Origin: Selenomonadaceae bacterium
GTDB taxonomy: Bacteria; Bacillota; Negativicutes; Selenomonadales; Selenomonadaceae
Assembly (NCBI GenBank): GCA_017535925.1
Contig: JAFXTD010000019.1
Span: forward strand, 1 to 63,547
Direction of reading: 5' to 3'
DNA length: 63,547 bases
A program made the translations under genes and the position numbers. Under the pieces are notes generated by a model. The model saw only the letters and a list, made by a program, of their open reading frames with translations. It was not told the origin of the DNA and ran no database searches. Below are positions 1,412-62,338 of this stretch, piece by piece (position 1 is the stretch's first letter; every line of letters starts with the position of its first letter).

Positions 1412-3664
1412 TTACCCCGCGTGTTTGGTTCTGTCGCGAAGTTCGGCGCGTTTCGGGTCGTTCCAACGATAAGTCGGACTCAGATACCCGGTGATGCGGC
1501 GCACTTTGATAAAGCGTTGACGTGGCGTTTCCTTGCGGCCGCATTTCGGACAAACATTGTTGATAATGCCGGTGTAGCCGCAAACAGGATCGTAATCGAC
1601 GGGATGATTCACGCTGAAATATCCCATGTCGGCGTCGTGCATAGCGCGAATAATTTTCTCGAACGCGTGAATATTTTTTGACGGGTCGCCGTCCATTTCG
1701 ATATAGGCGATATGTCCCGCGTTGCAGAGCGCGTGATAAGGAGCCTCGATTTTGATTTTGTCGAACGCGCTGATTTTGTAATAAACGGGAACATGATTTG
1801 AATTCGTCATATATTCGCGGTCGGTGACGCCTTCAATGACGCCGAATTTTGCACGATTGGCGCGTTGAAAAGTTCCTGCGGTCGATTCGGCGGGCGTGGC
1901 GAACGTCGTCCAGTTCATGTGATCGGCGGCGGTGAATGCGTCGGTTTTTGCGCGAAGGTGTCCGACAATGTCCAAACCCAAACTTTGAGCCTGTTGACTT
2001 TCGCCGTGATGTTTGCCGGTCAAAGCAATTAAGCACTCGGCAAGCCCGCAAAATCCGATTGAATAACTTGCGTGCTTGAGAACTTCGCCAATTTCGTCGT
2101 CGGGATTGAGTTTGTCGGAATCAAGCCACACGCCTTGCCCCATGAGAAACGGGAAATTGTAAACTTTTTTGGCGGCAATATATTTCAGCCGGAAAAGTAA
2201 ATAATCGTGGCAGAGCTGAATATATTTGTCGTAAAGCGCGAAGAATTTATCGGTATCGCCGCCGGCTTCAAGCGCGAGTTTCGGCAGATTAATCGTCACG
2301 AACGCGAAATTTCCGCGACCGCCCGAAACTTCCGCGCCGTTGACGTTGCCCATAACTCTTGATCTGCACCCCATCGTTGCAACAAAACTGTTATAATCGC
2401 CCGCTTTGTAGTACTGTGCGTTATACGGCGCGTCCAAGTTCAAAAAGTTGGGGAACAATCTTTTTGCGCTGACTTCGCAGGCATATTTGAACAGATCATA
2501 ATTCGGGTCGCCTTCGTTGTAGTTGACGCCGCTTTTGAGCTGAAAAACGCTAATCGGGAAAATCGCAGTTTCGCCTTTGCCGAGCCCGTTTTTAATCGCG
2601 GTGAGCACTTCGCGAATAACCAAACGTCCTTCGGGCGAAGTGTCCATGCCGTAATTGATTGAACTGAACGGAACTTGTGCGCCGGCTCGTGAATGCAATG
2701 TGTTAAAATTGTGAATTAACGCTTCCATAGCTTGATGAGTTTCCTCGGCGACGGATTGGCAAGCGTTCACGTAAATTTTCTTCGCAAGTTCGCGGTCTTC
2801 CAAAACTTCCGCGAGCAAATCGATTGATCGAACGTCGTCAAATTTCAAACTGAAACGGCATTGGTCAACAACGTCGGCGTCAATAATTCGTGCGTTTGTG
2901 TACGAACAAGCGCGTTCAATTTCCAAATAAAGAGCCTTGCGAAAACTTTTTTTGACGCCTTCGGCCATTGCAAAATCGAACGCGTTGATTGATTGTCCGC
3001 CGAACATATCATTTTGATTCGCTTGAATTGCGATACAGGCAAGCGCGGCATAGGAGCGAATTGAATTCGGCTCGCGTAAAAATCCGTGTCCCGTGGAAAA
3101 TCCGCCGTGCAAAAGTTTCAGCAAATCAATTTGGCAACAGTTCAAAGTTATCAGCGAAAAATCCTGATCGTGTATGTGGATAAAATGTTCCTTGTGCGCG
3201 TCGGCAAATTCTTTCGGCAGGACGTAATTGTTGACAAAGTGTTTCGAGCTTTCCGCGCCGATATTGAGCATGATACCCATCGGGGCGTCGGTGTTGATAT
3301 TTGCGTTTGAACGTTTGGCGTCGACGTCGGCAGAGTCGGCGAAGAAAATTTCCTTGCACGTCGCCATAAGATTTTCGTTCGCGTCGCGGCTGATTTTGTG
3401 CAAGTAGCGATATTCGATATAAGCTTTCGCCATTGAATAGTAGCCGTTCATCATCAGCGCAGTTTCGACAAGATCTTGGATTGTCTCAACGGAAATATCT
3501 TGACTGCCCAAAACTTCAATCGCCGAAACAACGTCCCGCGTGAGCTGTTGAATAACTTTCGTGTTGATTTCGGGAGCAACGGCGTCGCGGCATTTATTGA
3601 GCGCGTTGAAAATTTTGTGTCCGTCGAAGTCAACTTTTGCGCCGTTGCGCTTGATTACTTGCAT
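1412..3664 (-). CDS. nrdD: Anaerobic (class III) ribonucleoside-triphosphate reductase
   Basis: A glycyl-radical enzyme that reduces NTPs to dNTPs without oxygen. The 750 residues start with an ATP-cone (VIKRNGAKVDFDGHKI), which allosterically senses ATP/dATP, followed by the reductase barrel with the MGCRS cysteine segment. A C-terminal RRITGYLSP motif places the radical glycine near residue 726. The metal site before it reads DPVC...CPKC, so the first Cys of the usual pair appears to be Asp. I chose the second of two close ATGs because AGGAG lies 8 nt before it but only 2 nt before the first. No nrdG activase gene is visible here, so activation probably relies on the host. It is co-directional with clamp and ThyX genes, a dNTP/replication operon. 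Confidence 0.93.
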   Translation of the reverse strand: MQVIKRNGAKVDFDGHKIFNALNKCRDAVAPEINTKVIQQLTRDVVSAIEVLGSQDISVETIQDLVETALMMNGYYSMAKAYIEYRYLHKISRDANENLMATCKEIFFADSADVDAKRSNANINTDAPMGIMLNIGAESSKHFVNNYVLPKEFADAHKEHFIHIHDQDFSLITLNCCQIDLLKLLHGGFSTGHGFLREPNSIRSYAALACIAIQANQNDMFGGQSINAFDFAMAEGVKKSFRKALYLEIERACSYTNARIIDADVVDQCRFSLKFDDVRSIDLLAEVLEDRELAKKIYVNACQSVAEETHQAMEALIHNFNTLHSRAGAQVPFSSINYGMDTSPEGRLVIREVLTAIKNGLGKGETAIFPISVFQLKSGVNYNEGDPNYDLFKYACEVSAKRLFPNFLNLDAPYNAQYYKAGDYNSFVATMGCRSRVMGNVNGAEVSGGRGNFAFVTINLPKLALEAGGDTDKFFALYDKYIQLCHDYLLFRLKYIAAKKVYNFPFLMGQGVWLDSDKLNPDDEIGEVLKHASYSIGFCGLAECLIALTGKHHGESQQAQSLGLDIVGHLRAKTDAFTAADHMNWTTFATPAESTAGTFQRANRAKFGVIEGVTDREYMTNSNHVPVYYKISAFDKIKIEAPYHALCNAGHIAYIEMDGDPSKNIHAFEKIIRAMHDADMGYFSVNHPVDYDPVCGYTGIINNVCPKCGRKETPRQRFIKVRRITGYLSPTYRWNDPKRAELRDRTKHAG

Positions 3665-3818
3665 TTGCATTACTCCTTTGGTCGTATTGAAGACAGAGCT
3701 TGTCGTAATTCCAAAAGTGGCGGTTGCCCGTTTCCACAATTCCGAACAAAATCTTTAACGCGTGCCCGCAAATCCAGCGGCGGCCGCGTCGGTCGGTAAA
3801 AATGCCGAACTGGTTCAC
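3630..3818 (-). CDS. Small protein upstream of nrdD, GTG start
   Basis: This is a 62-aa, Arg/Asn-rich protein that I do not recognise. Support is contextual: GGAGG lies 7 nt before the GTG, the gene fills the gap between a membrane-protein gene and nrdD, and it overlaps the nrdD start by 35 bp as in a translationally coupled operon. Residues 10-30 (RRGRRWICGHALKILFGIV) are basic then hydrophobic. It could also be a leader ORF for nrdD. Confidence 0.55.
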   Translation of the reverse strand: MNQFGIFTDRRGRRWICGHALKILFGIVETGNRHFWNYDKLCLQYDQRSNANASNQAQRRKS

Positions 3819-8098: not shown

Positions 8099-8755
8099 TT
8101 AATCTCCTTGTTCGTAAGCGTTGATTGTGTCGATGATAAATTTCATGTCGTTGGGAATTTGTTCGTCGAAACAACCTTCGGGCGAACGTGCGCTTGAGCG
8201 ATTGGGTTGCGTCTCGAAAAAATATTTTCCGTCGACGGCTTTGGCGTAGAAAACATAGAGCAACAAACTTTCAATTCCCACGTCGCTAACCATTTTGCCG
8301 GGCGTCTTGATTCGGTCTATGGCGTTCGGGTTATTCGGGTCGGCAACTTCGACATGAGCGTTGATAATCACGTCGAGATTTTCGCGGGCGGCTTTTGCGT
8401 GGCGAACAATTTGCAAAATCGATTTGCCAAGGTCAGCCCAACCCTGATAGGAGCGGTCGGCATTGAAATATTTCCCGAAATTCATTGCGGTATTGAGCCC
8501 GTCGATAACGAGCGTGCGGATTTTGGATTGCTTGTCGGGGTTGCCGATTTTGTCAATCCAGTTGATGATTGTCGGGATGTCGTCGAGCGGGTAAAAATTT
8601 TTCTTATCGGAGCCGAAAGATTTTTTCCAGCCGCGCCACGGTAAAGCCCGTTTTGTGTCGGCGTCGATAATGCAAGTTGTTTCGGGATCAAGATTGCGGA
8701 GCGCGAAAGTTTTGCCGCTGGCGGGTTGCCCGTAAACGAGAATCACGCGTGCCAC
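8099..8755 (-). CDS. RecA-fold ATPase, Sak4-like (AAA_24 type)
   Basis: A 218-aa P-loop ATPase. Walker A GQPASGKT is at residues 9-16 and a Walker B LVIDG at about 82-86, with the short core expected of phage Sak4 proteins, which act with an SSB in single-strand annealing. I chose the GTG at 8755 because GGAGG lies 7 nt before it; the TTG two codons earlier is too close to the ribosome site. It is immediately followed by the DUF669 gene. An alternative is a generic phage nucleotide-binding protein of the same fold. Confidence 0.82.
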   Translation of the reverse strand: MARVILVYGQPASGKTFALRNLDPETTCIIDADTKRALPWRGWKKSFGSDKKNFYPLDDIPTIINWIDKIGNPDKQSKIRTLVIDGLNTAMNFGKYFNADRSYQGWADLGKSILQIVRHAKAARENLDVIINAHVEVADPNNPNAIDRIKTPGKMVSDVGIESLLLYVFYAKAVDGKYFFETQPNRSSARSPEGCFDEQIPNDMKFIIDTINAYEQGD

Positions 8756-27029: not shown

Positions 27030-29276
27030 ATGAAAACCTATACCACGAAAATCGCGAAAAACGGCGCAACCCTTTACTACAGCGTCGAAACCGGCAAAAG
27101 AATCGCGAAAGAAATCGCCCTCGAAATCGAGCGCAAAGAAATTATCGCCAACGGCACCGTCAAAGAACGCTACGAACTGGCGAAAGAAACCACCGAAACC
27201 AAATCCGAGGAGGATACCGAAATGAAAAACCAAAACACCAACGCGGTGAGCACGCCCGCAATCCCCTACGAAGTCTTCATGACGCTGGTCACGGGCAAAA
27301 ACGCCGAACAACGCGCCGCCAAACTCGCCGAAGAGCAACGCCAGCGCGACATCGACGAATACAAGTACAATATCAGAATAACCGAATACAAAATCGCTTC
27401 TGTGGCGAGCAACCTGCACTATATCAATGACGAATGCGAAAAATACCCCACCGACGAAAGCTTAAAAGCATACGCCGCCGAGCTCACGGAAGAAGTTGCA
27501 AGCCTTCAAACCGAACTCACCGACACGAAAATCAAACTCGCCAAGCTGACGCACGAAGCCGACATCGAAGATTACGCGGTCAGCACCGAAGCGCAGGACG
27601 CCGCTATCGAAGCCGAAATCGAACCGGCAACCGCAACCAGCGAAGAAATTGCCGAAACTGAGGAGGATACCGAAATGAAAAACCAAAACACCAACGCGGT
27701 GAGCACGCCCGCAATCGAAACCAGGATCGCAAGCAACGGCGCAGTCAGCGTCTACGTCAACGGAAAACGCACCAGCCGCGAAGAAGCCGTTGAAATCGCC
27801 GAACAAAACGACCTGCCGACCTACACGGCAACCTGCTACCCCTACAGCGAAAGAAATTACTGCATCAACAAAGATTTTGCCACCGCACTCAGCGCGTACA
27901 AATGGATGGAGCGCGAAGCCGACAAAAACCTCAACGTCGCCGATGGCAGTTTCAAGATTAAACGCTACACCCCCAGATTTGAAAACGGAAAGAAGATTTA
28001 CGAAGAAACGAAGATTTACGAGTACGACGACTTGGGTGAAGAAATCGACGCCGACGACGAGCACGAACCCGAATTCGCAAAATTCATTTACGCGAAAAAC
28101 GGCGAATCACTCATCAGCCAAGGATACGAACGCATGATGCGCTTCCACGACCAACTTATCGGCGAAGGCTTGACCGAAGAGCAAATCAATCAAGTTCTCG
28201 TCACTCAGTACAACGACGCAAACGGTCGCGAACACTGCAACCTGATTAAAGAATTCAAAGCGCAAAACGCCGCCAAAGCCGAAGCTAACGTCGAAGATTA
28301 CGCGGTCAGCACCGAAGCGCAGGACGCCGCTATCGAAGCCGAAACAATCAGCACGGACGAACGCATTGCCGAAATCGAAAACGAAATCGCGCCGCTCGTC
28401 GAAGAAATGAAAGTTGTCGCAACCGGCTTGCAAATGTTCAAGGAATATCCCGACGAATACACGCAAGAGTTTATCGACGAACGCGAAAACCTCTACGACA
28501 GCTTGAGCCGCAAATATCGCAAGCTTGTCGGCGAACTTGAATCACTCCAAAAAACGCCGCCCGAAAATCCCAAACCCGAAACTCCGAACGAAACGCACGC
28601 CGAACCCGAAGAAATTACCTTTATCGCGCAAAACGGCGCAAGCCTCACGATCGAAGGCGGTATGCCGACAATCGCGGCGAACGGTAATAGACTCGAAGTC
28701 AATGGAATTTGGCTCGGCGATTACTACACAAACGAAGACGCGCAAGAAGCCGCCGAAGCCTTGAAAATTGACGTTGAAGAATTCGGCGACGACCACCCTG
28801 TTTTGAACAAAGAATATTTCGCCGAAATCGAGTTTGAAGAATCACCAACCGGCGGTGACAGAACTGCCGAACACCTTAACGCGAACGCGCCCGAAGGTTG
28901 GACGGTCACCCGCGCCGATAAAAAAATCAACGTCGATTATCACGGCAAGCGCGTTGCCGAAGTCGACCGAATCACAGAACGCGACCTGCTAGTCCCGCAC
29001 GCCTTCTTCCGGCAATTCACGCCACTCGTCGATAAATCCAAAACGCCCGAACAAATCTTTCTCGACGACCGATACCGCGAACTTGCCGAGCTTGAGGAAA
29101 GGCGCGAAGAACTTCAGCACACGTCGCCGATATCCAAGGAGCGATTAAAAACCCTCGACGACATGATTAATCAAGTCAAGCGCGACATTTACGAAACCGA
29201 AATGGATAATCCCGACACAGTCGCAAGTTTCTGCAAGGCGGGCGCGATTGACGAAGACGGGAACGTCTGGTTCTAA
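27030..29276 (+). CDS. 748-aa repeat protein of unknown function with internal starts
   Basis: A large, acidic, helix-rich protein on the strand opposite to all neighbouring tail genes. It has no recognised domain. Four motifs of about 10 residues built on NGA/NGE (KIAKNGATLYYS, RIASNGAVSVYV, FIYAKNGESLIS, FIAQNGASLTIE) mark repeated small modules. Two longer units are exact repeats: a 19-codon block (residues about 60-78 and 211-229) and an 18-codon block (about 179-196 and 421-438). In each copy of the first block AGGAGG lies 8 nt before an in-frame ATG (27222 and 27675), so three nested products are possible. Coiled-coil stretches occur between. A host-takeover, anti-defence or structural role cannot be told from sequence. 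Confidence 0.8.
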   Translation: MKTYTTKIAKNGATLYYSVETGKRIAKEIALEIERKEIIANGTVKERYELAKETTETKSEEDTEMKNQNTNAVSTPAIPYEVFMTLVTGKNAEQRAAKLAEEQRQRDIDEYKYNIRITEYKIASVASNLHYINDECEKYPTDESLKAYAAELTEEVASLQTELTDTKIKLAKLTHEADIEDYAVSTEAQDAAIEAEIEPATATSEEIAETEEDTEMKNQNTNAVSTPAIETRIASNGAVSVYVNGKRTSREEAVEIAEQNDLPTYTATCYPYSERNYCINKDFATALSAYKWMEREADKNLNVADGSFKIKRYTPRFENGKKIYEETKIYEYDDLGEEIDADDEHEPEFAKFIYAKNGESLISQGYERMMRFHDQLIGEGLTEEQINQVLVTQYNDANGREHCNLIKEFKAQNAAKAEANVEDYAVSTEAQDAAIEAETISTDERIAEIENEIAPLVEEMKVVATGLQMFKEYPDEYTQEFIDERENLYDSLSRKYRKLVGELESLQKTPPENPKPETPNETHAEPEEITFIAQNGASLTIEGGMPTIAANGNRLEVNGIWLGDYYTNEDAQEAAEALKIDVEEFGDDHPVLNKEYFAEIEFEESPTGGDRTAEHLNANAPEGWTVTRADKKINVDYHGKRVAEVDRITERDLLVPHAFFRQFTPLVDKSKTPEQIFLDDRYRELAELEERREELQHTSPISKERLKTLDDMINQVKRDIYETEMDNPDTVASFCKAGAIDEDGNVWF
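27207..27263 (+). repeat. 57-bp direct repeat with ribosome site and start codon, copy 1
   Basis: This block is identical to 27660-27716. It contains AGGAGG (27208-27213) and an in-frame ATG at 27222 with 8-nt spacing. Confidence 0.9.
27565..27618 (+). repeat. 54-bp direct repeat inside the 748-aa gene, copy 1
   Basis: Identical to 28291-28344. It encodes EDYAVSTEAQDAAIEAE and probably links modules. Confidence 0.9.
27660..27716 (+). repeat. 57-bp direct repeat with ribosome site and start codon, copy 2
   Basis: Second copy of 27207-27263, with AGGAGG at 27661-27666 and ATG at 27675 in frame with the large protein. Confidence 0.9.
28291..28344 (+). repeat. 54-bp direct repeat inside the 748-aa gene, copy 2
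   Basis: Second copy of 27565-27618, in the same frame. Confidence 0.9.
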
Positions 29277-47061: not shown

Positions 47062-48948
47062 TCAGCTCCAAATATCCGTTTCAAGAAATTTTTTCCTGTT
47101 CGTCGTCGAACGGGATTTTTTCTTGCGTTTGGGATTTTCCGCGCCGCCGCGCAAAACTTCATGCTGATTTTGCCAAAAAGTTTCGGGATTATTGCCTACG
47201 CAACTTTTCATGCACGCAAAATTGTATACAGCGAGATCAAGGCTTTCATTGCGGGCGTGTTCCGTAATACATTCCCATGCCTGATAAACAATACCGCCGA
47301 CACGCCGAAAAACTTTGTGCTCCGAAATCAGTTGCTTAAAATAATCCGCATCATAACCGCGCCGCTTGAAAAATTCATCGTCTCGTGGGAAATGCATAAC
47401 GCCGTTGCCTTCCGTGACACCGAGCCGCGACATAATTTCCTGCTTGCCGTCGTCGACGCCTAAAATCGTCAAAAGTACATTAGTTTGCTTAGGGTGTCCA
47501 TATTTGTACAAAATGGGCAATCCCATGCCGGCTTTACCTTTAATCGGGAAACGTCCTTTGCTCATGTTTCGGGCGCAATATTCGTAAACCGTCGCCGTTG
47601 CGAAGCCCGAATCAACGAACGTTCGCGCAACTTTAATCGGCGTCCCGTTCCCGAAAAAATAAACTCTGTCGAGCACGTCATCAAGTGCCCGCCACGTCGA
47701 AGGAAAATTTGGCTCCCCACGAATCACGCCACGCAAAATCCCGTGTCGAGTTTCACCCGCCGACCAGCCCGCGATTTCGTATTCAAGGCGATTAGCCTGC
47801 ACGTCAACCGCCGCCGTCAAAAGCAACACAGGTGACGGAATTTCGCCGTCATAATCTTCGCGTCGATCAAGAAAAATATTTTCATCGGGATAATCCCCCG
47901 TGATTCGGTAACTCAGACCAAATCTTGTATTGCAAACAACCGCCTCACGATTCGGGTCGCCACGTGCCTCAAGCCACTCGCGCATAATTTCATGCCACGA
48001 CAGCCACGGCGACGAAAAACCATTCAGCCAAAAACTACGCGTCCCGTTTTGTATCGCGTCGGGATTTTGTGCCTCGTAATGTTGCGGGGCATTTTTCATT
48101 TCCAGTTCCGAAAACTCGAAACCGCAATCGGGACAACGCCACTTGACCGAATTAACCACGACAGACTTGTTGCCTGCCTCGTCGCGTGTTTGCTTGAAGT
48201 CAACCTGCATTTGCCGATAATCGAGCGCGTGATATTCGCCGCAGTTCGGGCATTGATGTCGCCATTCTTCCTGCGTGCCAAGTTGATATTCCAAATCAAT
48301 TCGGCTTGCGCCTTCCGTCGTCGGAGTTGAAAACAAGCCGATTTTGTAATTCCAAAAAGTTGTCGTGCGTTTCGCCGCCAAATCAACGGGGTCGCCTTCT
48401 TTTGACGCCGATTGTGGAAATCTGTCGACTTCATCGCACAAAAGAATTCTTATCGGACGTGACGCCAAATTAGCAGGAGAATTCGCACCGGTGAGCACGA
48501 CGCGCCCGCCCGTGAAAAATTTGTTCAGTATCGTTTGATTCGCGTCACGAGTTTTGAGTTTATCGTAGAAAAGCGGCGTCAAAACTTTTGTATCTTCAAT
48601 CATGCGCGACAATCGAGCTTTGGAAAAATCCTGTGCAAGTTCCAAAGTCGGTTGAATTATCATCAGCGAACACGGATCGAGATGAGCAAATCTGCCGACG
48701 ATATTCAGCAGGCATTCTGACTTCGAGACTTGAGCCGCCGCCTTGATTGCCACGCGGTGAATTCTTTCGTCCGTGAACGCGTCCATAACCGCTTGCATGT
48801 ACGGAACGCGTGACGTGTGCCATTGCCCCGGTTCCGCGCTGTCACTCGGCAGTTGTCGAAACGTGTCCGCCCACTTCGACACGGATAATTTTTTAATCGG
48901 TTTGGTCAGTCTCGAAAGGAACTTCTTCAACGCCGCTTTCGTCTTCAA
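47062..48948 (-). CDS. terL: Terminase large subunit, GpA family
   Basis: A 628-aa DNA-packaging motor of the lambda GpA family. ATPase part: AIKAAAQVSKSECLLNIVGRF (variant Walker A) and ILLCDEVDRFP (Walker B). A zinc-ribbon pair CPNCGEYH...CPDCGFEF lies near residues 240-285. The nuclease half holds LLTAAVDVQANRLEYEI and a VDSGFATATVYEY segment. I chose TTG 48948, with GGAGG 9 nt upstream, inside the small terminase gene. GpA-type terminases of known phages cut at cos sites. Confidence 0.92.
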   Translation of the reverse strand: MKTKAALKKFLSRLTKPIKKLSVSKWADTFRQLPSDSAEPGQWHTSRVPYMQAVMDAFTDERIHRVAIKAAAQVSKSECLLNIVGRFAHLDPCSLMIIQPTLELAQDFSKARLSRMIEDTKVLTPLFYDKLKTRDANQTILNKFFTGGRVVLTGANSPANLASRPIRILLCDEVDRFPQSASKEGDPVDLAAKRTTTFWNYKIGLFSTPTTEGASRIDLEYQLGTQEEWRHQCPNCGEYHALDYRQMQVDFKQTRDEAGNKSVVVNSVKWRCPDCGFEFSELEMKNAPQHYEAQNPDAIQNGTRSFWLNGFSSPWLSWHEIMREWLEARGDPNREAVVCNTRFGLSYRITGDYPDENIFLDRREDYDGEIPSPVLLLTAAVDVQANRLEYEIAGWSAGETRHGILRGVIRGEPNFPSTWRALDDVLDRVYFFGNGTPIKVARTFVDSGFATATVYEYCARNMSKGRFPIKGKAGMGLPILYKYGHPKQTNVLLTILGVDDGKQEIMSRLGVTEGNGVMHFPRDDEFFKRRGYDADYFKQLISEHKVFRRVGGIVYQAWECITEHARNESLDLAVYNFACMKSCVGNNPETFWQNQHEVLRGGAENPKRKKKSRSTTNRKKFLETDIWS

Positions 48949-49429
48949 AAGTTGCGCCCTCCAATCCTGCCGCAAGTTCAGTCAGATTTTCTTCAATCGC
49001 CGATGTGAGTATCGAATAAATTTCGCCGCGAGATTTGCCGTCGAGTTGTGCCGCGTATTTGGCGGGCAAGCCCAAAAGTTTACTCCGAAAGTTTGTGATA
49101 ATTTCTCCCAACACACTTTCAACCGTTGCCGCCTCGTAAAGTTCGCCTTTGGTTTTGGCAAGCTTGACTTCGGCAAGTTCGCGCTTAGCTTTTTCGTGAA
49201 GTCCTTTTTCTTTCCAAAAGTTGACGCCGTCGCCCGAAGTGTTTTTCGACAGAAAATAATTCTGCAGACTGTCGAGCAACATGACTTCGCCGTTTTTCGA
49301 CCGATCATCGCGCACGACAATTCCCTCGTCGATTAGCTGATTGATTCGGGGCTGTGTCAAACTCAATGCCCGTGCAAGTTGCGACTGCGAGCAAAACAAA
49401 TCGCTTATAGCTCCGATAACTTTTCCCAT
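48893..49429 (-). CDS. terS: Terminase small subunit, Nu1-like
   Basis: A 178-aa protein. Residues 14-36 (SQSQLARALSLTQPRINQLIDEGIVV) form the winged helix-turn-helix that binds the packaging site; the middle is a helical, charged assembly domain (EKAKRELAEVKLAKTKGELYEAA), and the C-terminus is acidic. Its gene overlaps the large subunit. It is the first clear gene of the packaging block. Confidence 0.88.
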   Translation of the reverse strand: MGKVIGAISDLFCSQSQLARALSLTQPRINQLIDEGIVVRDDRSKNGEVMLLDSLQNYFLSKNTSGDGVNFWKEKGLHEKAKRELAEVKLAKTKGELYEAATVESVLGEIITNFRSKLLGLPAKYAAQLDGKSRGEIYSILTSAIEENLTELAAGLEGATFEDESGVEEVPFETDQTD

Positions 49430-49690
49430 GTGCGCCTCAATTCTTTATCTGTTTAGTCCCGACAATTGCCACGACTTATAAGAATAAGTAAAAAAAATTT
49501 TTTTTACCTAGACACTTGCCGGACGTCGCCGCCGCCGCGCAGCCTTGCCCTAAGCTGGAAGGACCCGTGGTAAAAAAATAAGCCCGTATAGGGGGCAAAA
49601 TTTTCTTTAGAGGCTGTCACGCTAATTTTAATCGATAGCAAAAATGTTATCAATGTAAACAAGTGTAAACTGCAGGCAACTAATCGGAAA
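49430..49690. other. Non-coding 260-bp stretch before the terminase genes, cos/pac candidate
   Basis: I see no gene on either strand. It contains a perfect 20-bp palindrome of eight A and eight T flanked by GT/AC (49488-49507), then a GC-rich run (49522-49545) and several short AT-rich repeats. In phages with Nu1/GpA-type terminases the packaging site commonly lies next to terS, so this is the most likely place; no known cos sequence is recognised. Confidence 0.4.
49488..49507. repeat. Perfect 20-bp A/T palindrome
   Basis: GTAAAAAAAATTTTTTTTAC is self-complementary. As RNA it would form a hairpin with a U tract in either direction, so it may be a terminator; as DNA it is strongly bent and could belong to the packaging site. 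Confidence 0.85.
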
Positions 49691-50146
49691 CTAGCGGCAA
49701 CATTGAGCAATTCTTAAACCTGTTCGAAAACGAATCATTTCTTTGCTGTCAAGATTCAACGCGTTTAAACCTTTATCGTGCAATCGCAAAATGTATTGTC
49801 GCGTGTAATGCAGGAGCTTCGCAATAGCATTGAACGATTGACAACCGACATAACGATAGCTGATAACTCGTTGCGGTAATTCGTCCATGTGTGTTTGATT
49901 GAGCAACGACAACAGTCGGAACTTCTGCGCTTCGATCTGTTCAGCGATTGTTGTTAGTGATCGTTCGGCGTCGACGATTAACGTTGCGAGTTTCTCGACC
50001 TTTGACGATTGAGCCGGTGCGTGTGGCATTCCGTCAAGTGGCGGGGCTGAAGGATGAGCGAAGAAACGCAAATCTTCAAGTCGGCGTGTCTCGCGCTCAT
50101 ATTTCAGTTTCAATTCCCAAACCGAATTCAGCATTTGATAATCCAA
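49691..50146 (-). CDS. RinA/ArpU-like late transcription regulator
   Basis: A 151-aa protein whose C-terminal region is a sigma-4-like helix-turn-helix, QRVISYRYVGCQSFNAIAKLLHYTRQYILRLHDKGLNAL (about residues 90-130), as in ArpU/RinA activators of late genes and DUF1492 proteins. The N-terminal part is a helical coil. I chose TTG at 50146 because GGAGG lies 8 nt before it. It is the first gene before packaging genes and is transcribed from the origin-like region, fitting a late activator. Confidence 0.8.
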   Translation of the reverse strand: MDYQMLNSVWELKLKYERETRRLEDLRFFAHPSAPPLDGMPHAPAQSSKVEKLATLIVDAERSLTTIAEQIEAQKFRLLSLLNQTHMDELPQRVISYRYVGCQSFNAIAKLLHYTRQYILRLHDKGLNALNLDSKEMIRFRTGLRIAQCCR

Positions 50147-50198
50147 GGCGGCGTCCTCCAAAAGTCCGTGAACAACTGATTATTGGCTTGATTATAGC

Positions 50199-50227
50199 AC
50201 AAATGGCGTTGTAACGCCATTTTTTTA
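50199..50227 (+). terminator. Perfect 10-bp hairpin with seven T residues
   Basis: AAATGGCGTT and AACGCCATTT pair around a 2-nt loop, followed by T residues in the plus direction. No plus-strand gene precedes it. The minus strand carries TATAAT (50189-50194 complement) just downstream, so it may instead serve in late-promoter control or origin structure. Confidence 0.6.
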
Positions 50228-50264
50228 TATTTTGGCTGTGCGCGACAAAAATCAGCCGGTGACG

Positions 50265-50299
50265 ATGGTGTTGAAGGGTGTTGATTTGGTGACGAAACG
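50265..50299 (+). repeat. 35-bp perfect inverted repeat, left arm
   Basis: Begins ATGGTGTTGAAGGGTG and includes GGTGACGAA. Its partner is 50714-50748. Perfect identity at the outside, with diverged inner arms, suggests selection for the ends. Confidence 0.95.
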
Positions 50300-50512
50300 T
50301 TTTTTTGACAAATGGCGTCCTGACGCGGTTTGTGACAAATGCGGTGACGAAAGGTGATGAAAAGGTGATGAAAAAAATTGGACAAAACAAGCCCACACTA
50401 GGCGAGTTTCAATTTTGGTGACGAAATCCCCTATTGTAGCGTTCTCCGCAAAAAATTTTTCAAAAAAACTGGTTGGATTTTTTGCCATATTTCTAATTTG
50501 TTATAATCCTAT

Positions 50513-50540
50513 AATAGTCAAAAAGTCCAACCTGTTTTTT
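50513..50540. repeat. 28-bp sequence shared with the primase gene repeats
   Basis: The block AATAGTCAAAAAGTCCAACC plus eight further bases is present, reverse-complemented, in the third 60-bp tandem repeat of the primase gene (52552-52579), and with one change in the other two. Confidence 0.9.
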
Positions 50541-50713
50541 TTTTTTTTTCGCTGTAGAGCGCTATAATGGGAAAATCGTCACCAGTAAGGCGGAAAAATG
50601 CAAAAGTCGCCTAGTGTACGCTTGTTTTTTTGGCACTTTTAACGGTCAAAAATTCGTCACCACTTCGTCACCCGATTTTTAAAGTTGGCGTTCTGACGCC
50701 ATTTGTTGAAGGT

Positions 50714-50748
50714 CGTTTCGTCACCAAATCAACACCCTTCAACACCAT
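50714..50748 (-). repeat. 35-bp perfect inverted repeat, right arm
   Basis: Exact reverse complement of 50265-50299. Three TTCGTCACC iterons lie at 50651, 50663 and 50717, and a fourth at 50759 just outside. Confidence 0.95.
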
Positions 50749-50773
50749 TTGCCCGAAATTCGTCACCTCGGCA

Positions 50774-50809
50774 CAAAAAAACACCCCGAATTGAGCTTCG
50801 GGGCGTTGA
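50774..50809 (-). terminator. Rho-independent terminator after the primase-helicase gene
   Basis: AACGCCCCGAA and TTCGGGGTGTT pair around a 6-nt loop and are followed by a T-run on the minus strand. It ends the early transcript before the origin-like region. Confidence 0.85.
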
Positions 50810-50824
50810 AATTTTCGTATCGGT

Positions 50825-53800
50825 TCAGCTTTCAAACGGAATATCATCGGTGTGCGAGTTGTCGACAAGCCCAAAACCGAAATATTCGATACCGCGCTTT
50901 GTTCTTTCGCGTCGGCAGTTGGGGAGTTGTTCGACGAGCTTGCCGAGTTCGCGATCGTTGTAGCGTGAGCATTCGAAGCCGAAATTGTTCCTGAGTTTGT
51001 CCAGAAAATCTTTGCGCGTGCAATGTTTATCGTCGCCGGTTACGCAGAATTCCTCGATAAACTGCGTGATAAAGTCGTTGTCGGCAATGTAAGTTCTGCG
51101 GGATTTGTTCATTTCGGCAGACTCAATCAACTTGTCTTCGCGGTAATAATTGTATGCGCCGTCGACGATAACGCTGAGCAGTGCCGATAAATTTTCCTCT
51201 TCAAGCAGACGTTTCGGCAAGGAAAGATCGGCGTCCTTACCTTCAAAAGTTTGGCTGAATTCGAGCGTTTGAAGTCGGCGGAGCAAGCCTTTATCGCGAA
51301 CGTTGGCGAGTTGCGGGAAAAAGTTTCCGCAGATAATGAATTTGGCGAACGGTCGGAAGTTTTCAAAGTTGCAATGGAGCAAGCGCACGGACATTTCTTC
51401 GCCGCCCGTCACGTCTTTAACGAGTTGGGAATTTAGCGTGCAAGTTTGCGGCAGTTCGGAACTGATTGCGACGCGTGCGCCGATAAGCATAGCAAGCGCG
51501 GGCGTTGCGTTGTTTGCGTCGGCGGGGGTTTTCGGCTCAAGCAGGAGTGACGCGGGAATATTGACTGCGTGCCCGCCCATCATGTATTTGTATGTCACAA
51601 GAATTGTCGATTTACCGTTTGCGCCGCGTCCCTTCCAGAAGTGAAGTTTTTGCTGATTGATTTCGCCGGTCGTGCAATAGCCGAGATAGCGAATCATGGC
51701 GGCAAGCGATTCTTCGTTCGGCTGAATATCACGCAAGAATTTCCGCACGGTCGACTGGTCGGCGTTGGGGTTCCAAACGGCATTGCAACACTTTGTAAGG
51801 AGCAAATTTTTATCGACTTCGGGATAAAATTGTTTGGTCTGCAGGTCGATAACGCCGTTTTTGACGAGCAACAAATTCGGGTGCGCGTCAAGGTCGGCGG
51901 CCTTGATAACAACTTGGTCGTCGACGCGTGCAAGGCGAATTGCGTTGCTCATGCACTTGCCATTACGCCAACTTTGAATCATTTTGTCGGTATCCTTGTC
52001 GGCGTTGGCGGGCATGTTCGCGGTTAAAATCGAGCTCATTTTTCGGGCGAAGCGCAAGACTTCAATATCTTGTTTCGGGTTGCTGAGCGTCCAAACTCCG
52101 CAACCTTTATAATCGGGGTTTTTCTGGAAAACAAGCCATTGATCGCGGGCGGTGATATGGCGGAGACAGCTTCCGAACGTGTAAATAAGTTGCGTGGCGC
52201 GGCCTTCGTCGTCGTCGGGCTGAGCGAAAAGATATTCCACGTCGAAATTATCGGCTTTGATTTTGAACTTGTTGTCAATGGCGGCCTTGTCGCGGGCGCG
52301 TTCGTGTTCGCGAAGCTGTTGCGCGTTGTATGCGGTCTGCTTTTTCTTAATTTCGCGGGCAAGCTCGTTGACTTCGTGTTGAAAATTTTTCACGTCGAAA
52401 TCCGCCAACGCATTTGCGGAGGAAAAACTTGAAAAAACGGGTTGGACTTTTTGACTATTGTTTTCGTCATCATTTGCGGAGGAAAAACTTGAAAAAACGG
52501 GTTGGACTTTTTGACTATTGTTTTCGTCATCATTTGCGGAGGAAAAACTTGAAAAAACAGGTTGGACTTTTTGACTATTGTCGTTTCCCTTCCAAGTTGA
52601 TGTCGCGCTAAAGAATTCCTCTTTCTCCAACTCGCGGCAAATCTTTTTTGCTTCCTTGCAAATCTTCTTGAGCGTGGCGATAAATTCGTCGTGCAAGCGG
52701 GACATGTAAACTTTGAGCGCGGCGATTTGGTGCCGACGTTTGATAGTGCTGAGTTCTTTAACGTCGAAATTTTCTTCGCCGATGGTTTTGGCGAAAGAAA
52801 TTCCTTCGGCAAGCGCGGCTTTGATGTCGGGATTAATTTTCCCGTGCACTGACTCGTAATCGCTGAAATCGGGTTTTTGTTCGTCGACTGAATTATCGGG
52901 CGCGGGCGTTTCCGTTTCTTCTGCGGACTCCTGCGCGTTAATTTCGGTATGTTCGTCGTTCGCGGGTGCCGAAAAAATTTCGTCGTCGGTCAACGTGCCG
53001 TTTTTTGCGGCATCGTAAATTTCTTTGATTCGGGCGGCGAAATTTTCGGGTTCCGCCTGTAAAAATTCGTTCGCGTCGTTGAACTTGTCGGAAAGTTGCA
53101 CACCGACCGCGTCATGTCCGAGAGCTTTTAAAGTTTTGACGACAGCGGGCGTTTCCTTAATTCCGGCTTCGTCGTTATCGAGCACGACGACGAAAAATTT
53201 CTTGCCGATATCTTCGGCGCGAAGTCTGCGTTTGTGCTTGCCGGTAATTGCGGTGCCCATAATCGCAACTGCGTTGACGTGCGGCGTTTTGCTGAGCGAA
53301 ATAATTCCGTTCGCGTTGATAAATTCGTCGCGCACGGAGCCGAAAAAAGTACTGATCGCGTCGAATTCGCCTTCGTGGACAAAAATAATCGGGTCGTCAC
53401 TTTCGACAGCGCGTTTGAAATTGAAAACGGGCTTCGGTGCGGGCGAGTGCCATTTTTTACGCAGGACGGATTTTTGTTCGTCGGAAAGTTCATCCTCGTT
53501 GCCGGTGAAGCGCGCAAGGAAACTGTGCTTTGACGCGGGCACGATAAACGCGGGAGTTTTCGCCTTGCCGAATTCGCCGACGTGACCGCACCAGAAATAT
53601 TCGTAAATTGCTTTGGGAATACCGCGATAAACATTGTCGTGCCGAGCCATAAAAAATTTCAGTCCCGAAGCCGCGAACGAATAAAAATTCGAGTAATCTT
53701 TAAGTTTGCTTTCGTCGACTTCGTTGGTGTCGTCGAAAATCACGGGGCTTGCGGCGTGCGGGCTGTGAACTTCGCCGTTTTCGTCAATGACGACGCCGAG

Positions 53801-54133
53801 CAATTTGGCAACTGCTTCGAGAGCTTTTGGAAAGTCGTTGGCGTCAGGGAATTTGCCTTTGTCGTCGACGTGATAATTGAGCTTGAATTTTGCGGCAAGC
53901 GCGATATTATCCCATGAGCAATGGCATTTGTAGCAATGCCACTCGACGTGGTCGCCGTTTTGCGAAAGATATTTCGGGACAATGCCGGTTCCGTCGTGAC
54001 CACTGCCGTTATTGCATTCGGGGCAAGTCCAGCCGAGTTTTGCCTTGACGAGTCCGATCTTGATTGCAACGGTATCGGGGTCGACCATGCGCACTGCGGT
54101 GCGGATTTTTTCGCGTTCCTCTTTGCTAAGCAT
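50825..54133 (-). CDS. Primase-helicase (zinc finger, Toprim, D5/P4-type SF3 helicase)
   Basis: A 1,102-aa replication protein. A primase zinc site CPEC...CYKC is at residues 37-70; a Toprim fold follows near 245-330 (PIIFVHEGEFDAIS and FFVVVLDNDEAGIK); the helicase has D5_N-like sequence and Walker A GRGANGKST near residue 835. A linker at residues about 517-574 consists of three 20-residue tandem repeats (KVQPVFSSFSSAN cores). GGGGG precedes the ATG at 54133. It should unwind and prime at the neighbouring origin-like region. P4 alpha is about 777 aa, so this protein is enlarged by the linker. Confidence 0.9.
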   Translation of the reverse strand: MLSKEEREKIRTAVRMVDPDTVAIKIGLVKAKLGWTCPECNNGSGHDGTGIVPKYLSQNGDHVEWHCYKCHCSWDNIALAAKFKLNYHVDDKGKFPDANDFPKALEAVAKLLGVVIDENGEVHSPHAASPVIFDDTNEVDESKLKDYSNFYSFAASGLKFFMARHDNVYRGIPKAIYEYFWCGHVGEFGKAKTPAFIVPASKHSFLARFTGNEDELSDEQKSVLRKKWHSPAPKPVFNFKRAVESDDPIIFVHEGEFDAISTFFGSVRDEFINANGIISLSKTPHVNAVAIMGTAITGKHKRRLRAEDIGKKFFVVVLDNDEAGIKETPAVVKTLKALGHDAVGVQLSDKFNDANEFLQAEPENFAARIKEIYDAAKNGTLTDDEIFSAPANDEHTEINAQESAEETETPAPDNSVDEQKPDFSDYESVHGKINPDIKAALAEGISFAKTIGEENFDVKELSTIKRRHQIAALKVYMSRLHDEFIATLKKICKEAKKICRELEKEEFFSATSTWKGNDNSQKVQPVFSSFSSANDDENNSQKVQPVFSSFSSANDDENNSQKVQPVFSSFSSANALADFDVKNFQHEVNELAREIKKKQTAYNAQQLREHERARDKAAIDNKFKIKADNFDVEYLFAQPDDDEGRATQLIYTFGSCLRHITARDQWLVFQKNPDYKGCGVWTLSNPKQDIEVLRFARKMSSILTANMPANADKDTDKMIQSWRNGKCMSNAIRLARVDDQVVIKAADLDAHPNLLLVKNGVIDLQTKQFYPEVDKNLLLTKCCNAVWNPNADQSTVRKFLRDIQPNEESLAAMIRYLGYCTTGEINQQKLHFWKGRGANGKSTILVTYKYMMGGHAVNIPASLLLEPKTPADANNATPALAMLIGARVAISSELPQTCTLNSQLVKDVTGGEEMSVRLLHCNFENFRPFAKFIICGNFFPQLANVRDKGLLRRLQTLEFSQTFEGKDADLSLPKRLLEEENLSALLSVIVDGAYNYYREDKLIESAEMNKSRRTYIADNDFITQFIEEFCVTGDDKHCTRKDFLDKLRNNFGFECSRYNDRELGKLVEQLPNCRRERTKRGIEYFGFGLVDNSHTDDIPFES
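52411..52580. repeat. 60-bp tandem repeats (2.8 copies) inside the primase gene
   Basis: Units start at 52411, 52471 and 52531; the first two are identical and the third differs by one base in its 50 bases. Each encodes 20 residues in frame. A 28-bp part of the unit also occurs in the origin-like region. Confidence 0.95.
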
Positions 54134-54153
54134 ATAAAAACCCCCTTCAAATG

Positions 54154-54183
54154 TTGACACACAACACCAAAAGGGGCTATAAT
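54154..54183 (+). promoter_or_regulatory. Plus-strand promoter candidate
   Basis: TTGACA (54154-54159) and TATAAT (54178-54183) are perfect hexamers 18 bp apart, facing away from the primase gene. The region 54184-54330 that it would transcribe has no gene but strong hairpins. Confidence 0.55.
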
Positions 54184-54330
54184 CATCTTGCTTAATTTGA
54201 ATAAACGGTTTTCGCAAGATGCCCGCTTCCGGTGTTATGATGTTTTAGGTAAACTTATCTTAACACGTAAGGCGGGCATTTTGCAACGCTTTTTTTTGCC
54301 CGCCTTTGGTGTTCGTGCCGTTAAAATAGA
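54184..54330 (+). ncRNA. Structured non-coding stretch, possible small RNA
   Basis: Stems seen: CATCTTGC / GCAAGATG (54184-54221), GCCCGC with GCGGGC enclosing GTGTTA / TAACAC and GAT / ATC, and AAGGCGGGC / GCCCGCCTT near the end, with a T7 run. Together with the consensus promoter this suggests a structured plus-strand RNA; alternatively the same hairpins act in the primase 5' leader on the minus strand. Confidence 0.3.
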
Positions 54331-58450: not shown

Positions 58451-59584
58451 TTAAATCCTCACGGGCGTCGCAATGTAAATGTATTCGCCGAAACCGTCGG
58501 CGTCAGCCAATTCAACGGGCGTGACTTTGTCGCCGTAATTCATGCAGATTTTGTTGCAGGCAGCCGCGCTGAGATATTCAAGCAGATAATCGACGTTGAA
58601 GGCGATTTTTAAGTCGGCGTCGCATTTCGCCTCAACGCATTTAGAAAAATTCCCGCAGTCGTTGCTGTCGGCGGTGACTTCAATTCGGTTGTCGGAGAGT
58701 TGCAAAATCACTTGGTTGTATTCGGCATTTTTGGCAACGAGTTTCGCCTGTTCGAGCGCGGCTTTAAGTTCTTTGGTGTAAAAAGTCGCGGTGTCGGTGC
58801 GGTTGTCGTCGTAAAGAATCCTGTCGACGGGCGGGAATTCGCCTTCGATAATGCGCGTGCTGTAGCGAACGTTATCGAATTTGAAAGTCACTTTCTGATT
58901 TTCGGGAATGATTCGGATAAAATTATCGGGATTGTTGCCGACAGCGGCGTTAATCATGCGCAGGAAGTCCGCCGGAATAACGACGTTGAAACCGTCAACG
59001 TTTCTGTCGTTCGCGGAAATTCCGCCGCCGAGATAACAGGCAATGCGGTGCGTGTTGGTCGCGTACGCTTGGAAAACGTATCCGCTACCGGCGCGTTTGG
59101 CTTGAAAGTTGACGCCTTTGAAAACGGGTCGGGAGTTGTCCGTTTTTTCGACAGCGAAAATAGTTTTGCTGATCATGTCTTTCAAGGTTGCGGCGCGAAC
59201 GTTAAGTTCCGGTTCCTCGGCAAATTTCGGCGTCGGGAAATCTTTTGCGTCGAAGGTGAGCAAGTTGAACTTTGAGCCGCCGCTGTCGACGCGCAAGGAA
59301 TTTCCTTCGAGCGTGAAAGTAACAACGTCGTCAGTCAATTTGCCAACGACTTCGAGCAAGTAACGGGCATTGACGCAAACCGTGCCGCCGACTTCGATAT
59401 TGGCGGGGATTACGGCTTGAGCCGCAACTTTGAAATTTGTTGCCTCCAAAACAAGGCGTTTTCGTTCGTCGTCGGCAGTGATTTTCACCGCGCTCAAAAT
59501 CGGCGTTTGCGTTTTCGGGTCGGCGCATTTGGCAACGTTTTTCAAGTCGTCGAGTAAATCTTTCGTGTAGCAAGCGAATTTCAT
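58451..59584 (-). CDS. dnaN: DNA polymerase III beta subunit (sliding clamp)
   Basis: A 377-aa clamp with the three-domain DnaN pattern: ILSAVKITADDERKRLVLEATNFKVAAQAVIPANIEVGG (domain 1), RPVFKGVNFQ and TNTHRIACY (domain 2), and TKELKAALEQAKLVAKNAEYNQVILQLSDNRIEVTADSN with VDYLLEYLSAA (domain 3). A normal C-terminal (Y/V)IATPVRI end is present, where bacterial clamps have PMRL. A ring of two subunits tethers DNA polymerase. Phage-coded clamps of bacterial type are uncommon and imply recruitment of the host polymerase III. GGAGG precedes the ATG. Confidence 0.95.
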   Translation of the reverse strand: MKFACYTKDLLDDLKNVAKCADPKTQTPILSAVKITADDERKRLVLEATNFKVAAQAVIPANIEVGGTVCVNARYLLEVVGKLTDDVVTFTLEGNSLRVDSGGSKFNLLTFDAKDFPTPKFAEEPELNVRAATLKDMISKTIFAVEKTDNSRPVFKGVNFQAKRAGSGYVFQAYATNTHRIACYLGGGISANDRNVDGFNVVIPADFLRMINAAVGNNPDNFIRIIPENQKVTFKFDNVRYSTRIIEGEFPPVDRILYDDNRTDTATFYTKELKAALEQAKLVAKNAEYNQVILQLSDNRIEVTADSNDCGNFSKCVEAKCDADLKIAFNVDYLLEYLSAAACNKICMNYGDKVTPVELADADGFGEYIYIATPVRI

Positions 59585-59931: not shown

Positions 59932-62184
59932 TTACCCCGCGTGTTTGGTTCTGTCGCGAAGTTCGGCGCGTTTCGGGTCGTTCCAACGATAAGTCGGACT
60001 CAGATACCCGGTGATGCGGCGCACTTTGATAAAGCGTTGACGTGGCGTTTCCTTGCGGCCGCATTTCGGACAAACATTGTTGATAATGCCGGTGTAGCCG
60101 CAAACAGGATCGTAATCGACGGGATGATTCACGCTGAAATATCCCATGTCGGCGTCGTGCATAGCGCGAATAATTTTCTCGAACGCGTGAATATTTTTTG
60201 ACGGGTCGCCGTCCATTTCGATATAGGCGATATGTCCCGCGTTGCAGAGCGCGTGATAAGGAGCCTCGATTTTGATTTTGTCGAACGCGCTGATTTTGTA
60301 ATAAACGGGAACATGATTTGAATTCGTCATATATTCGCGGTCGGTGACGCCTTCAATGACGCCGAATTTTGCACGATTGGCGCGTTGAAAAGTTCCTGCG
60401 GTCGATTCGGCGGGCGTGGCGAACGTCGTCCAGTTCATGTGATCGGCGGCGGTGAATGCGTCGGTTTTTGCGCGAAGGTGTCCGACAATGTCCAAACCCA
60501 AACTTTGAGCCTGTTGACTTTCGCCGTGATGTTTGCCGGTCAAAGCAATTAAGCACTCGGCAAGCCCGCAAAATCCGATTGAATAACTTGCGTGCTTGAG
60601 AACTTCGCCAATTTCGTCGTCGGGATTGAGTTTGTCGGAATCAAGCCACACGCCTTGCCCCATGAGAAACGGGAAATTGTAAACTTTTTTGGCGGCAATA
60701 TATTTCAGCCGGAAAAGTAAATAATCGTGGCAGAGCTGAATATATTTGTCGTAAAGCGCGAAGAATTTATCGGTATCGCCGCCGGCTTCAAGCGCGAGTT
60801 TCGGCAGATTAATCGTCACGAACGCGAAATTTCCGCGACCGCCCGAAACTTCCGCGCCGTTGACGTTGCCCATAACTCTTGATCTGCACCCCATCGTTGC
60901 AACAAAACTGTTATAATCGCCCGCTTTGTAGTACTGTGCGTTATACGGCGCGTCCAAGTTCAAAAAGTTGGGGAACAATCTTTTTGCGCTGACTTCGCAG
61001 GCATATTTGAACAGATCATAATTCGGGTCGCCTTCGTTGTAGTTGACGCCGCTTTTGAGCTGAAAAACGCTAATCGGGAAAATCGCAGTTTCGCCTTTGC
61101 CGAGCCCGTTTTTAATCGCGGTGAGCACTTCGCGAATAACCAAACGTCCTTCGGGCGAAGTGTCCATGCCGTAATTGATTGAACTGAACGGAACTTGTGC
61201 GCCGGCTCGTGAATGCAATGTGTTAAAATTGTGAATTAACGCTTCCATAGCTTGATGAGTTTCCTCGGCGACGGATTGGCAAGCGTTCACGTAAATTTTC
61301 TTCGCAAGTTCGCGGTCTTCCAAAACTTCCGCGAGCAAATCGATTGATCGAACGTCGTCAAATTTCAAACTGAAACGGCATTGGTCAACAACGTCGGCGT
61401 CAATAATTCGTGCGTTTGTGTACGAACAAGCGCGTTCAATTTCCAAATAAAGAGCCTTGCGAAAACTTTTTTTGACGCCTTCGGCCATTGCAAAATCGAA
61501 CGCGTTGATTGATTGTCCGCCGAACATATCATTTTGATTCGCTTGAATTGCGATACAGGCAAGCGCGGCATAGGAGCGAATTGAATTCGGCTCGCGTAAA
61601 AATCCGTGTCCCGTGGAAAATCCGCCGTGCAAAAGTTTCAGCAAATCAATTTGGCAACAGTTCAAAGTTATCAGCGAAAAATCCTGATCGTGTATGTGGA
61701 TAAAATGTTCCTTGTGCGCGTCGGCAAATTCTTTCGGCAGGACGTAATTGTTGACAAAGTGTTTCGAGCTTTCCGCGCCGATATTGAGCATGATACCCAT
61801 CGGGGCGTCGGTGTTGATATTTGCGTTTGAACGTTTGGCGTCGACGTCGGCAGAGTCGGCGAAGAAAATTTCCTTGCACGTCGCCATAAGATTTTCGTTC
61901 GCGTCGCGGCTGATTTTGTGCAAGTAGCGATATTCGATATAAGCTTTCGCCATTGAATAGTAGCCGTTCATCATCAGCGCAGTTTCGACAAGATCTTGGA
62001 TTGTCTCAACGGAAATATCTTGACTGCCCAAAACTTCAATCGCCGAAACAACGTCCCGCGTGAGCTGTTGAATAACTTTCGTGTTGATTTCGGGAGCAAC
62101 GGCGTCGCGGCATTTATTGAGCGCGTTGAAAATTTTGTGTCCGTCGAAGTCAACTTTTGCGCCGTTGCGCTTGATTACTTGCAT
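59932..62184 (-). CDS. nrdD: Anaerobic ribonucleotide reductase (second printing)
   Basis: Identical to 1412-3664. Here it is seen with its complete downstream neighbours dnaN and thyX, which confirms the nucleotide-supply/replication operon order nrdD, zinc-ribbon, dnaN, small membrane protein, 72-aa protein, thyX. Confidence 0.93.
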   Translation of the reverse strand: MQVIKRNGAKVDFDGHKIFNALNKCRDAVAPEINTKVIQQLTRDVVSAIEVLGSQDISVETIQDLVETALMMNGYYSMAKAYIEYRYLHKISRDANENLMATCKEIFFADSADVDAKRSNANINTDAPMGIMLNIGAESSKHFVNNYVLPKEFADAHKEHFIHIHDQDFSLITLNCCQIDLLKLLHGGFSTGHGFLREPNSIRSYAALACIAIQANQNDMFGGQSINAFDFAMAEGVKKSFRKALYLEIERACSYTNARIIDADVVDQCRFSLKFDDVRSIDLLAEVLEDRELAKKIYVNACQSVAEETHQAMEALIHNFNTLHSRAGAQVPFSSINYGMDTSPEGRLVIREVLTAIKNGLGKGETAIFPISVFQLKSGVNYNEGDPNYDLFKYACEVSAKRLFPNFLNLDAPYNAQYYKAGDYNSFVATMGCRSRVMGNVNGAEVSGGRGNFAFVTINLPKLALEAGGDTDKFFALYDKYIQLCHDYLLFRLKYIAAKKVYNFPFLMGQGVWLDSDKLNPDDEIGEVLKHASYSIGFCGLAECLIALTGKHHGESQQAQSLGLDIVGHLRAKTDAFTAADHMNWTTFATPAESTAGTFQRANRAKFGVIEGVTDREYMTNSNHVPVYYKISAFDKIKIEAPYHALCNAGHIAYIEMDGDPSKNIHAFEKIIRAMHDADMGYFSVNHPVDYDPVCGYTGIINNVCPKCGRKETPRQRFIKVRRITGYLSPTYRWNDPKRAELRDRTKHAG

Positions 62185-62338
62185 TTGCATTACTCCTTTG
62201 GTCGTATTGAAGACAGAGCTTGTCGTAATTCCAAAAGTGGCGGTTGCCCGTTTCCACAATTCCGAACAAAATCTTTAACGCGTGCCCGCAAATCCAGCGG
62301 CGGCCGCGTCGGTCGGTAAAAATGCCGAACTGGTTCAC
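62150..62338 (-). CDS. Small protein upstream of nrdD (second printing)
   Basis: Identical to 3630-3818. Confidence 0.55.
   Translation of the reverse strand: MNQFGIFTDRRGRRWICGHALKILFGIVETGNRHFWNYDKLCLQYDQRSNANASNQAQRRKS

Follow-up and report, generated by a model that had tools for sequence, protein, structure and literature searches.

An inverted duplication with inward-facing iterons beside a primase-helicase gene is a probable bidirectional replication origin of a 58.5-kb phage

The window, that is, the whole 63,547-nucleotide stretch analysed here (contig JAFXTD010000019.1), has an exact end overlap of 5,027 bp, from which a circle of 58,520 bp with a GC content of 49.0% was obtained. 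The source bin of the contig is a Selenomonadaceae-type genome of 2.59 Mb in 76 contigs, and we take a bacterium of this type to be the host. Pfam and PHROGs scans found terminase, portal, tape-measure, baseplate, tail-fibre and endolysin genes on the circle, and its replication and nucleotide genes include a DNA polymerase III beta clamp, ThyX, an anaerobic ribonucleotide reductase and a Gam-like protein. No integrase was named among the 27 ORFs scanned with Pfam, PHROGs or both, approximately half of the 60 called genes. The beta clamp (58451-59584) has all three DNA polymerase III beta clamp domains. The anaerobic ribonucleoside-triphosphate reductase gene appears twice, at 59932-62259 and as the same gene at 1412-3739, being doubled by the contig end overlap. 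On the plus strand, opposite to most genes, a 748-aa ORF at 27030-29276 had no PHROG match, and AT skew there reaches up to +0.52.

The primase-helicase gene (50825..54217, minus strand) encodes 1,130 aa with matches to Toprim_2, D5_N (E 5.9e-17) and DUF5906, and its 3′ end faces a 484-bp element at 50265..50748. The other flank of the element is occupied by a gene for a phage transcriptional regulator (phrog_36; 49691..50161, minus strand), and the small terminase gene (48893-49429) lies approximately 0.8 kb away. The primase-helicase ORF starts at TTG; an earlier note on this DNA had given the protein 1,102 aa, the length obtained with a start at methionine 29. Zinc-finger-like cysteines are present near the N-terminus, as judged by eye only. 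The C-terminal region of the window protein had no Pfam match, including to Pox_D5. In an alignment of 36 members (the window, 19 genome contigs and 16 of 80 IMG/VR loci, hand-chosen), 13 showed Pox_D5 matches at E up to 0.5, with a best value of 4.4e-7. The C-terminal profile of the window group was matched to that of other phage SF3 helicases by hhalign at 97.8% (E 9e-13). On the basis of these matches and of the nature of Pox_D5, we read this C-terminal domain as winged-helix-like. Distant matches to the whole protein were found in 870 phage and 388 plasmid records, while a single-protein scan of viral contigs found nothing and the element DNA had no match in a phage collection. At locus L042 (G070:C62) the primase-helicase gene lies in two overlapping frames and looks broken or misassembled.

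The element is an inverted duplication whose outer 35 nt (50265-50299 and 50714-50748) are 100% complementary. Nested inverted pairs at 50308-50326/50688-50706 (84%), 50384-50409/50603-50628 (88%) and 50462-50484/50519-50541 (91%) all have centres within 50501-50507, the centre of the element being 50,506, which bears out the earlier description of a 484-bp inverted duplication with a shared centre and perfect 35-bp ends. When 50240-50506 was aligned with the reverse complement of 50507-50772, 194 of 241 aligned columns were identical and 51 columns were gaps. The arm-versus-arm local score was 152, whereas 1,964 random adjacent segments drawn from this genome scored 31 at most, and the element was the top inverted blastn self-match of the circle among spans below 1.5 kb (E 3.75e-43).

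Both arms carry short iterons. Between 50100 and 50800, 11 GGTGACGAA-type sites with at most one mismatch were found, six on the plus strand to the left and five on the minus strand to the right, a perfect strand split with a chance of 0.011. When the GGTGTTGA form is also counted, 15 of the 18 GGTG[AT][CT]GA[AT] sites in the circle fall at 50240-50780 (8 plus on the left, 7 minus on the right), the other three being scattered at 3290, 19340 and 20179; site density elsewhere in the circle gives 0.03 expected per 540 bp. The inward-facing layout is thus as first described, and the earlier count of about ten was slightly low. On the left, the outer plus-strand iterons (50258..50296) begin at 50258 (GGTGACGAT, straddling the edge of the element), 50267 (GGTGTTGAA), 50277 (GGTGTTGAT) and 50288 (GGTGACGAA), followed by middle iterons (50343..50372) at 50343, 50353 and 50364 with a spacing of 10-11 bp, and by an inner GGTGACGAA at 50417..50425. 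The minus-strand iterons on the right comprise an inner GGTGACGAT (50575..50583), middle sites (50653..50672) at 50653 and 50664, and outer sites (50717..50767) at 50717, 50728, 50738 and, just beyond the right edge, 50759. Between the two iteron sets, as had been noted before, lies an AT-rich core of 104 bp (50442..50545, 75% AT) with inverted GGTTGGA(C/T)TTTTTG blocks at 50462-50484 and 50519-50541, which is the probable melting region.

Other repeats occur in and around the element. Palindrome-like sequences are present in the left arm (AAATGGCGTCCTGACGCGGTTT, 50310..50331) and the right arm (AGTTGGCGTTCTGACGCCATTT, 50683..50704), and a 10-nt perfect inverted repeat with a 2-nt spacer (AAATGGCGTTGTAACGCCATTT, also terminator-like) lies outside the element at 50201..50222. 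The AATGGCGTNNNNACGC palindrome, located in the window at these three positions, is frequent at these phage origins. It is, however, dispersed across the genus, with a match in 44 of 66 genomes and a reversed-pattern control of approximately zero, and is therefore not counted as origin evidence; the GGCGTNNNNACGC palindrome was dropped as an origin-specific mark. A terminator-like stem (50780..50807, minus strand) follows the primase-helicase gene. In the core region (50471-50532), GGTTGGACTTTTTGACTATT is exact on the right side and inverted and imperfect on the left (3 mismatches to a degenerate pattern), and three further exact copies belong to a 60-bp tandem repeat that is part of the primase-helicase gene (52440-52579); with up to 3 mismatches allowed, these four exact copies, all within the phage, were the only ones in its own genome. 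Another contig of the same bin, L091 (G000:C10), carries at 360-660 a second inward-facing array, seen by eye, with TGTGGAAA on the left, TTTCCACA on the right, an AT-rich middle and, at 638, the same palindrome as at the window element.

Repeat arrays were looked for beside related genes by counting the commonest 8-mer on both strands in at most 700 bp downstream of the gene, with a cut of five or more copies. Among 35 loci of the order, 5 were too short and were left out, and 23 of the remaining 30, window included, had arrays of at least five identical 8-mers; shuffles of the same sequences gave at most five copies of any 8-mer. Eight of 13 named records also had at least five copies 3′ of the gene. 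In a wider survey of 104 loci, 102 of them usable, arrays of at least five repeats followed the primase-helicase in 37 and were lacking in 65, in comparison with 0 of 100 in-gene controls. The positive loci were 17 of the best 80 IMG/VR contigs listed and 20 of 22 usable genome contigs, many of the survey's genome contigs being repeats of loci among the 35 of the order. Two loci with a VapE-like helicase (L060 and L061) had four copies each, below the cut. The mean mirror fraction was 0.74, compared to 0.56 with shuffled labels, and 10 of the 37 arrays were perfect mirrors. Pooled over the 52 of 122 loci in question, 316 of 586 sites formed mirror pairs by position (null 269 +/- 8, maximum 294). 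Taken singly, 4 of the 52 loci reached p <0.05, and the window was not among them, its own site-by-site reflection under strand-label shuffling being 6 of 11 sites (null 4.7, p 0.34).

One long relative of the element, with 72% DNA identity, was found in genome G070 at the orthologous place beside the primase-helicase. In alignments, same-side arms of the window phage and G070 agree at 186 of 232 positions and at 189 of 223. The corresponding counts are 181 of 228 and 163 of 206 for the two arms inside one phage, and 163 of 217 and 170 of 213 for opposite arms across the two phages. These counts hint, weakly, that the duplication is older than the split of the two phages.

Strand composition was used as a separate indicator of the origin. 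The cumulative GC skew of the circle is lowest at 49,550 and highest at 22,731, the element being at 50,506 and its antipode at 21,246. Block shuffling was repeated 2,000 times for each of three block sizes, and the skew amplitude was never reached. Third-codon GC skew was then regressed on gene strand and replichore on a 250-bp grid. The best antipodal origin of the window phage was 50,500, with a bootstrap interval of -1.5 to +3.0 kb from the element and 0 of 5,000 permutations. A related circle of 61,780 bp (G063:C66) gave a best origin of 6,000, its array centre being 6,588, with an interval of -3.6 to +2.4 kb and again 0 of 5,000 permutations; its raw skew has a minimum at 8,265 and a maximum at 37,604, with the antipode at 37,478. 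The raw minima thus lie 1.0 kb (window) and 1.7 kb (G063) from the element. With whole genes as units, the best fit moves to +1.5 kb in the window and -2.0 kb in G063, and the resolution of the skew fit is therefore a few kb. When origin and terminus were both left floating, the fit returned 50,500/24,500 for the window and 9,000/36,000 for G063. Among three named phages tested, THSA-485A had its best fit 0.8 kb off its array (permutation 30 of 3,000), and JNU_P5 and phi105 gave no skew signal at their arrays (2,214 and 1,002 of 3,000). All three are annotated with an integrase or recombinase, and it is only a guess that JNU_P5 and phi105 may be copied mostly within the chromosome. The replichore fit at the element in this phage and a relative, together with the arrays that likewise lie beside related primase-helicases, upholds the proposal of the earlier note that the element is a probable replication origin.

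Three other explanations of the element were weighed. It is improbable that the element serves in packaging (pac/cos) or in late-gene control as a target of the terminase small subunit or of the neighbouring phrog_36 regulator. The phrog_36 gene adjoins the element and the small terminase gene is close by, but such a role predicts no GC-skew reversal at the element and its antipode, and in JNU_P5 the array follows the primase at approximately 52.0-52.2 kb, whereas the terminase annotated in the 58,246-bp record occupies 604-2394. We give marginally less weight still to the possibility that the skew break comes from transcription or coding bias and coincides with the element by chance, the element itself being an incompatibility, partition or copy-control locus. 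Gene strand does affect skew strongly (coefficient -0.21), and iterons also serve in copy control, which favours such a reading. However, 24 minus-strand genes on each side of the element differ in third-position skew (+0.313 clockwise of it, -0.036 on the other side), and the strand-corrected fit still puts the break at the element in two phages, so that gene direction does not explain the skew break. A miniature inverted-repeat transposable element, which would have inverted repeats with perfect ends as seen here and which the earlier note had kept as its alternative, can be set aside almost entirely as far as searched, since copies at unrelated loci were looked for and no second copy was found in the 2.59-Mb assembly, the long relative stands beside an orthologous gene, and relatives have arrays of different repeats in the same position. 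In that assembly, where 40 of 93 first-look candidates were scored, the search gave nothing besides the element but three matches of 28 bp in the primase gene, and a 23-bp piece of the perfect ends, with up to 3 mismatches, occurred only at the two ends; apart from G070, matches in 189 genomes of the order were at most 60 bp (three candidates scored per genome).

With the anatomy of the element, the skew break at it and the arrays beside relatives of the gene established, we consider it very likely that the element is a phage origin of bidirectional theta replication. We infer that the winged-helix-like C-terminal domain of the adjacent Toprim-SF3 primase-helicase is the most likely binder of the iterons, and that the two inward-facing arrays would position a helicase assembly at either flank of the AT-rich core. 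Melting of the core would follow, the helicases would be loaded as two hexamers, and two forks would depart in opposite directions to meet near 21-24 kb.

Related loci offer a view of how protein and iteron may be matched. The G063 protein has the N-terminal primase half in common with the window protein (71%), and has a DUF927 helicase half and other iterons. Five relatives (L052, L055, L056, L069 and L070) have helicase cores that are 88 to 98% identical (243 to 269 of 275 columns), and their iterons are GCCGAAAA in L052 and L056, GGTTAAAA in L055 and L069, and TCCTAAAA in L070. Of 350 shared columns, 63 are variable and 9 split L052/L056 from L055/L069, 8 of these 9 falling in the last 19 residues. 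This clustering at the tail has a Fisher p of approximately 1e-6, or 2.6e-5 at a 32-residue cut, both cuts having been picked post hoc. The tail of L070, which is outside the separating-column criterion, has some residues as in each iteron group and some of its own; this mixed tail is in keeping with its third iteron, yet adds no further test. Nor does the agreement of tail and iteron in L056 and L070 count as a blind prediction. Across 210 pairs of 21 loci, the correlation of wing and iteron showed no peak at the wing (rho 0.29, the highest being 0.44 at residues 903-922); most of these pairs are too distant to inform, and the wing-iteron claim therefore rests on the five close relatives. A search for further close relatives of the five, covering 66 genus and 189 family genomes, yielded no more than one 65% relative; its iteron GCATAAAA keeps the AAAA half, and its gene runs into an early stop ahead of the wing.

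Upstream, L055 and L069 agree at 820 of 987 positions, and L056 and L069 at 889 of 984, whereas in the last 20 codons and the origin L055 and L069 are more alike than L056 and L069. A single crossover, exchanging the gene end and the origin as one block, could explain the wing-iteron link, and since the DNA pattern fits such a single exchanged block, co-inheritance is not separable from recognition. These comparisons suggest that the origin and the part of the protein reading it may change together in relatives. We tentatively raise the possibility, to which we would give somewhat less than an even chance, that the last approximately 20 helicase codons and the mirror origin form one exchangeable specificity cassette, in which a C-terminal winged-helix 'wing' would read the 5′ half of the iteron and a conserved helix the 3′ half. 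Phages would then switch replicon identity by cassette replacement, all iterons of both arms changing at once, possibly escaping origin-targeting parasites or incompatibility. A comparable case is described for PLE, whose RepA binding domain covaries with its origin, such changes escaping the Odn nuclease (PMC8263062). The PLE RepA-ori system attacked by ICP1 Odn differs from the present one in its RepA_N initiator with an N-terminal binding domain and in its three semi-palindromic iterons of approximately 30 bp.

The closest known plan is that of SaPI/PICI elements. In PICIs an ori follows pri-rep, in the E. coli PICIs mapped it has two iteron sets around an AT-rich region, and the segment drives plasmid replication (PMC6092414). 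The earlier note knew of no described phage origin with exactly this form, a point that needs correction: the PICI/SaPI origins reported in PMC6092414 and PMC7581432 have, 3′ of rep, an AT-rich region between two sets of iterons. The PICI authors state that no other known replicon has this origin plan. Likewise, the element at 50265-50748 lies directly 3′ of the initiator-helicase gene end at 50825 (minus strand) and has two iteron sets flanking an AT-rich region, a likeness that concerns placement and the two-set layout. The helicase is of D5_N type in the window and of DUF927 type in G063, both of which occur among SaPIs and PICIs (PMC6092414, PMC7581432). Unlike a SaPI/PICI origin, the element here belongs to a phage of 58.5 kb that carries terminase, portal, tail and lysis genes itself. 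The duplication takes in whole arms (194 of 241 aligned columns identical) and not iterons alone, and the primase is Toprim, compared to AEP in SaPIbov1 and SaPI5 (PMC7581432). That the C-terminal domain would bind iterons as in SaPI/PICI Rep is suggested only by the covariation in relatives (8 of 9 separating columns in the last 19 residues). A PICI is a satellite dependent on the virion genes of a helper phage, whereas the 58,520-bp circle has genes of its own for terminase, portal, tape measure, baseplate, tail fibre and endolysin; the element would work like a PICI origin, and the phage is not a PICI.

In phage P4, with its alpha protein and crr/ori, short type-1 repeats likewise lie directly 3′ of a primase-helicase gene, and the repeat GGTGAACA resembles GGTGACGA. 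However, the crr of P4 consists of two direct 120-bp repeats and its ori is separate and distant, whereas here 15 of 18 sites are in one inward-facing inverted array, so that the P4-type plan of two cis regions with iterons and direct crr repeats was not found. SCCmec Cch2, a 3′-to-5′ helicase of D5 type, uses its C-terminal domain to bind repeats located 3′ of its own gene, much as is proposed here for the window protein, and differs in that the system, with a putative ori, has three iterons only (PMC7581432). The layout is not unique, given the 3′ repeat arrays beside the primase-helicase in the survey loci and the SaPI/PICI plan, and in the literature searched, mostly open-access papers and thus a weak basis, no full-size phage origin in this form was found described. 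New here are a full-size phage with a SaPI/PICI-like plan built as a whole-arm inverted duplication, and the apparent concentration of 8 of the 9 columns separating the two-iteron helicase groups in the last 19 residues.

This suggests that satellites and phages share one origin plan, with strand-composition evidence of bidirectional firing in two circles, and the plan may allow phage origins to be predicted from sequence. Near-identical helicases with differing wings and iterons are a natural set for studying how a self-loading helicase changes its origin. In the Vibrio PLE system, joint change of the origin and its reader is described as escaping an origin-directed nuclease (PMC8263062), and turnover of this kind may be a wider signature of conflict.
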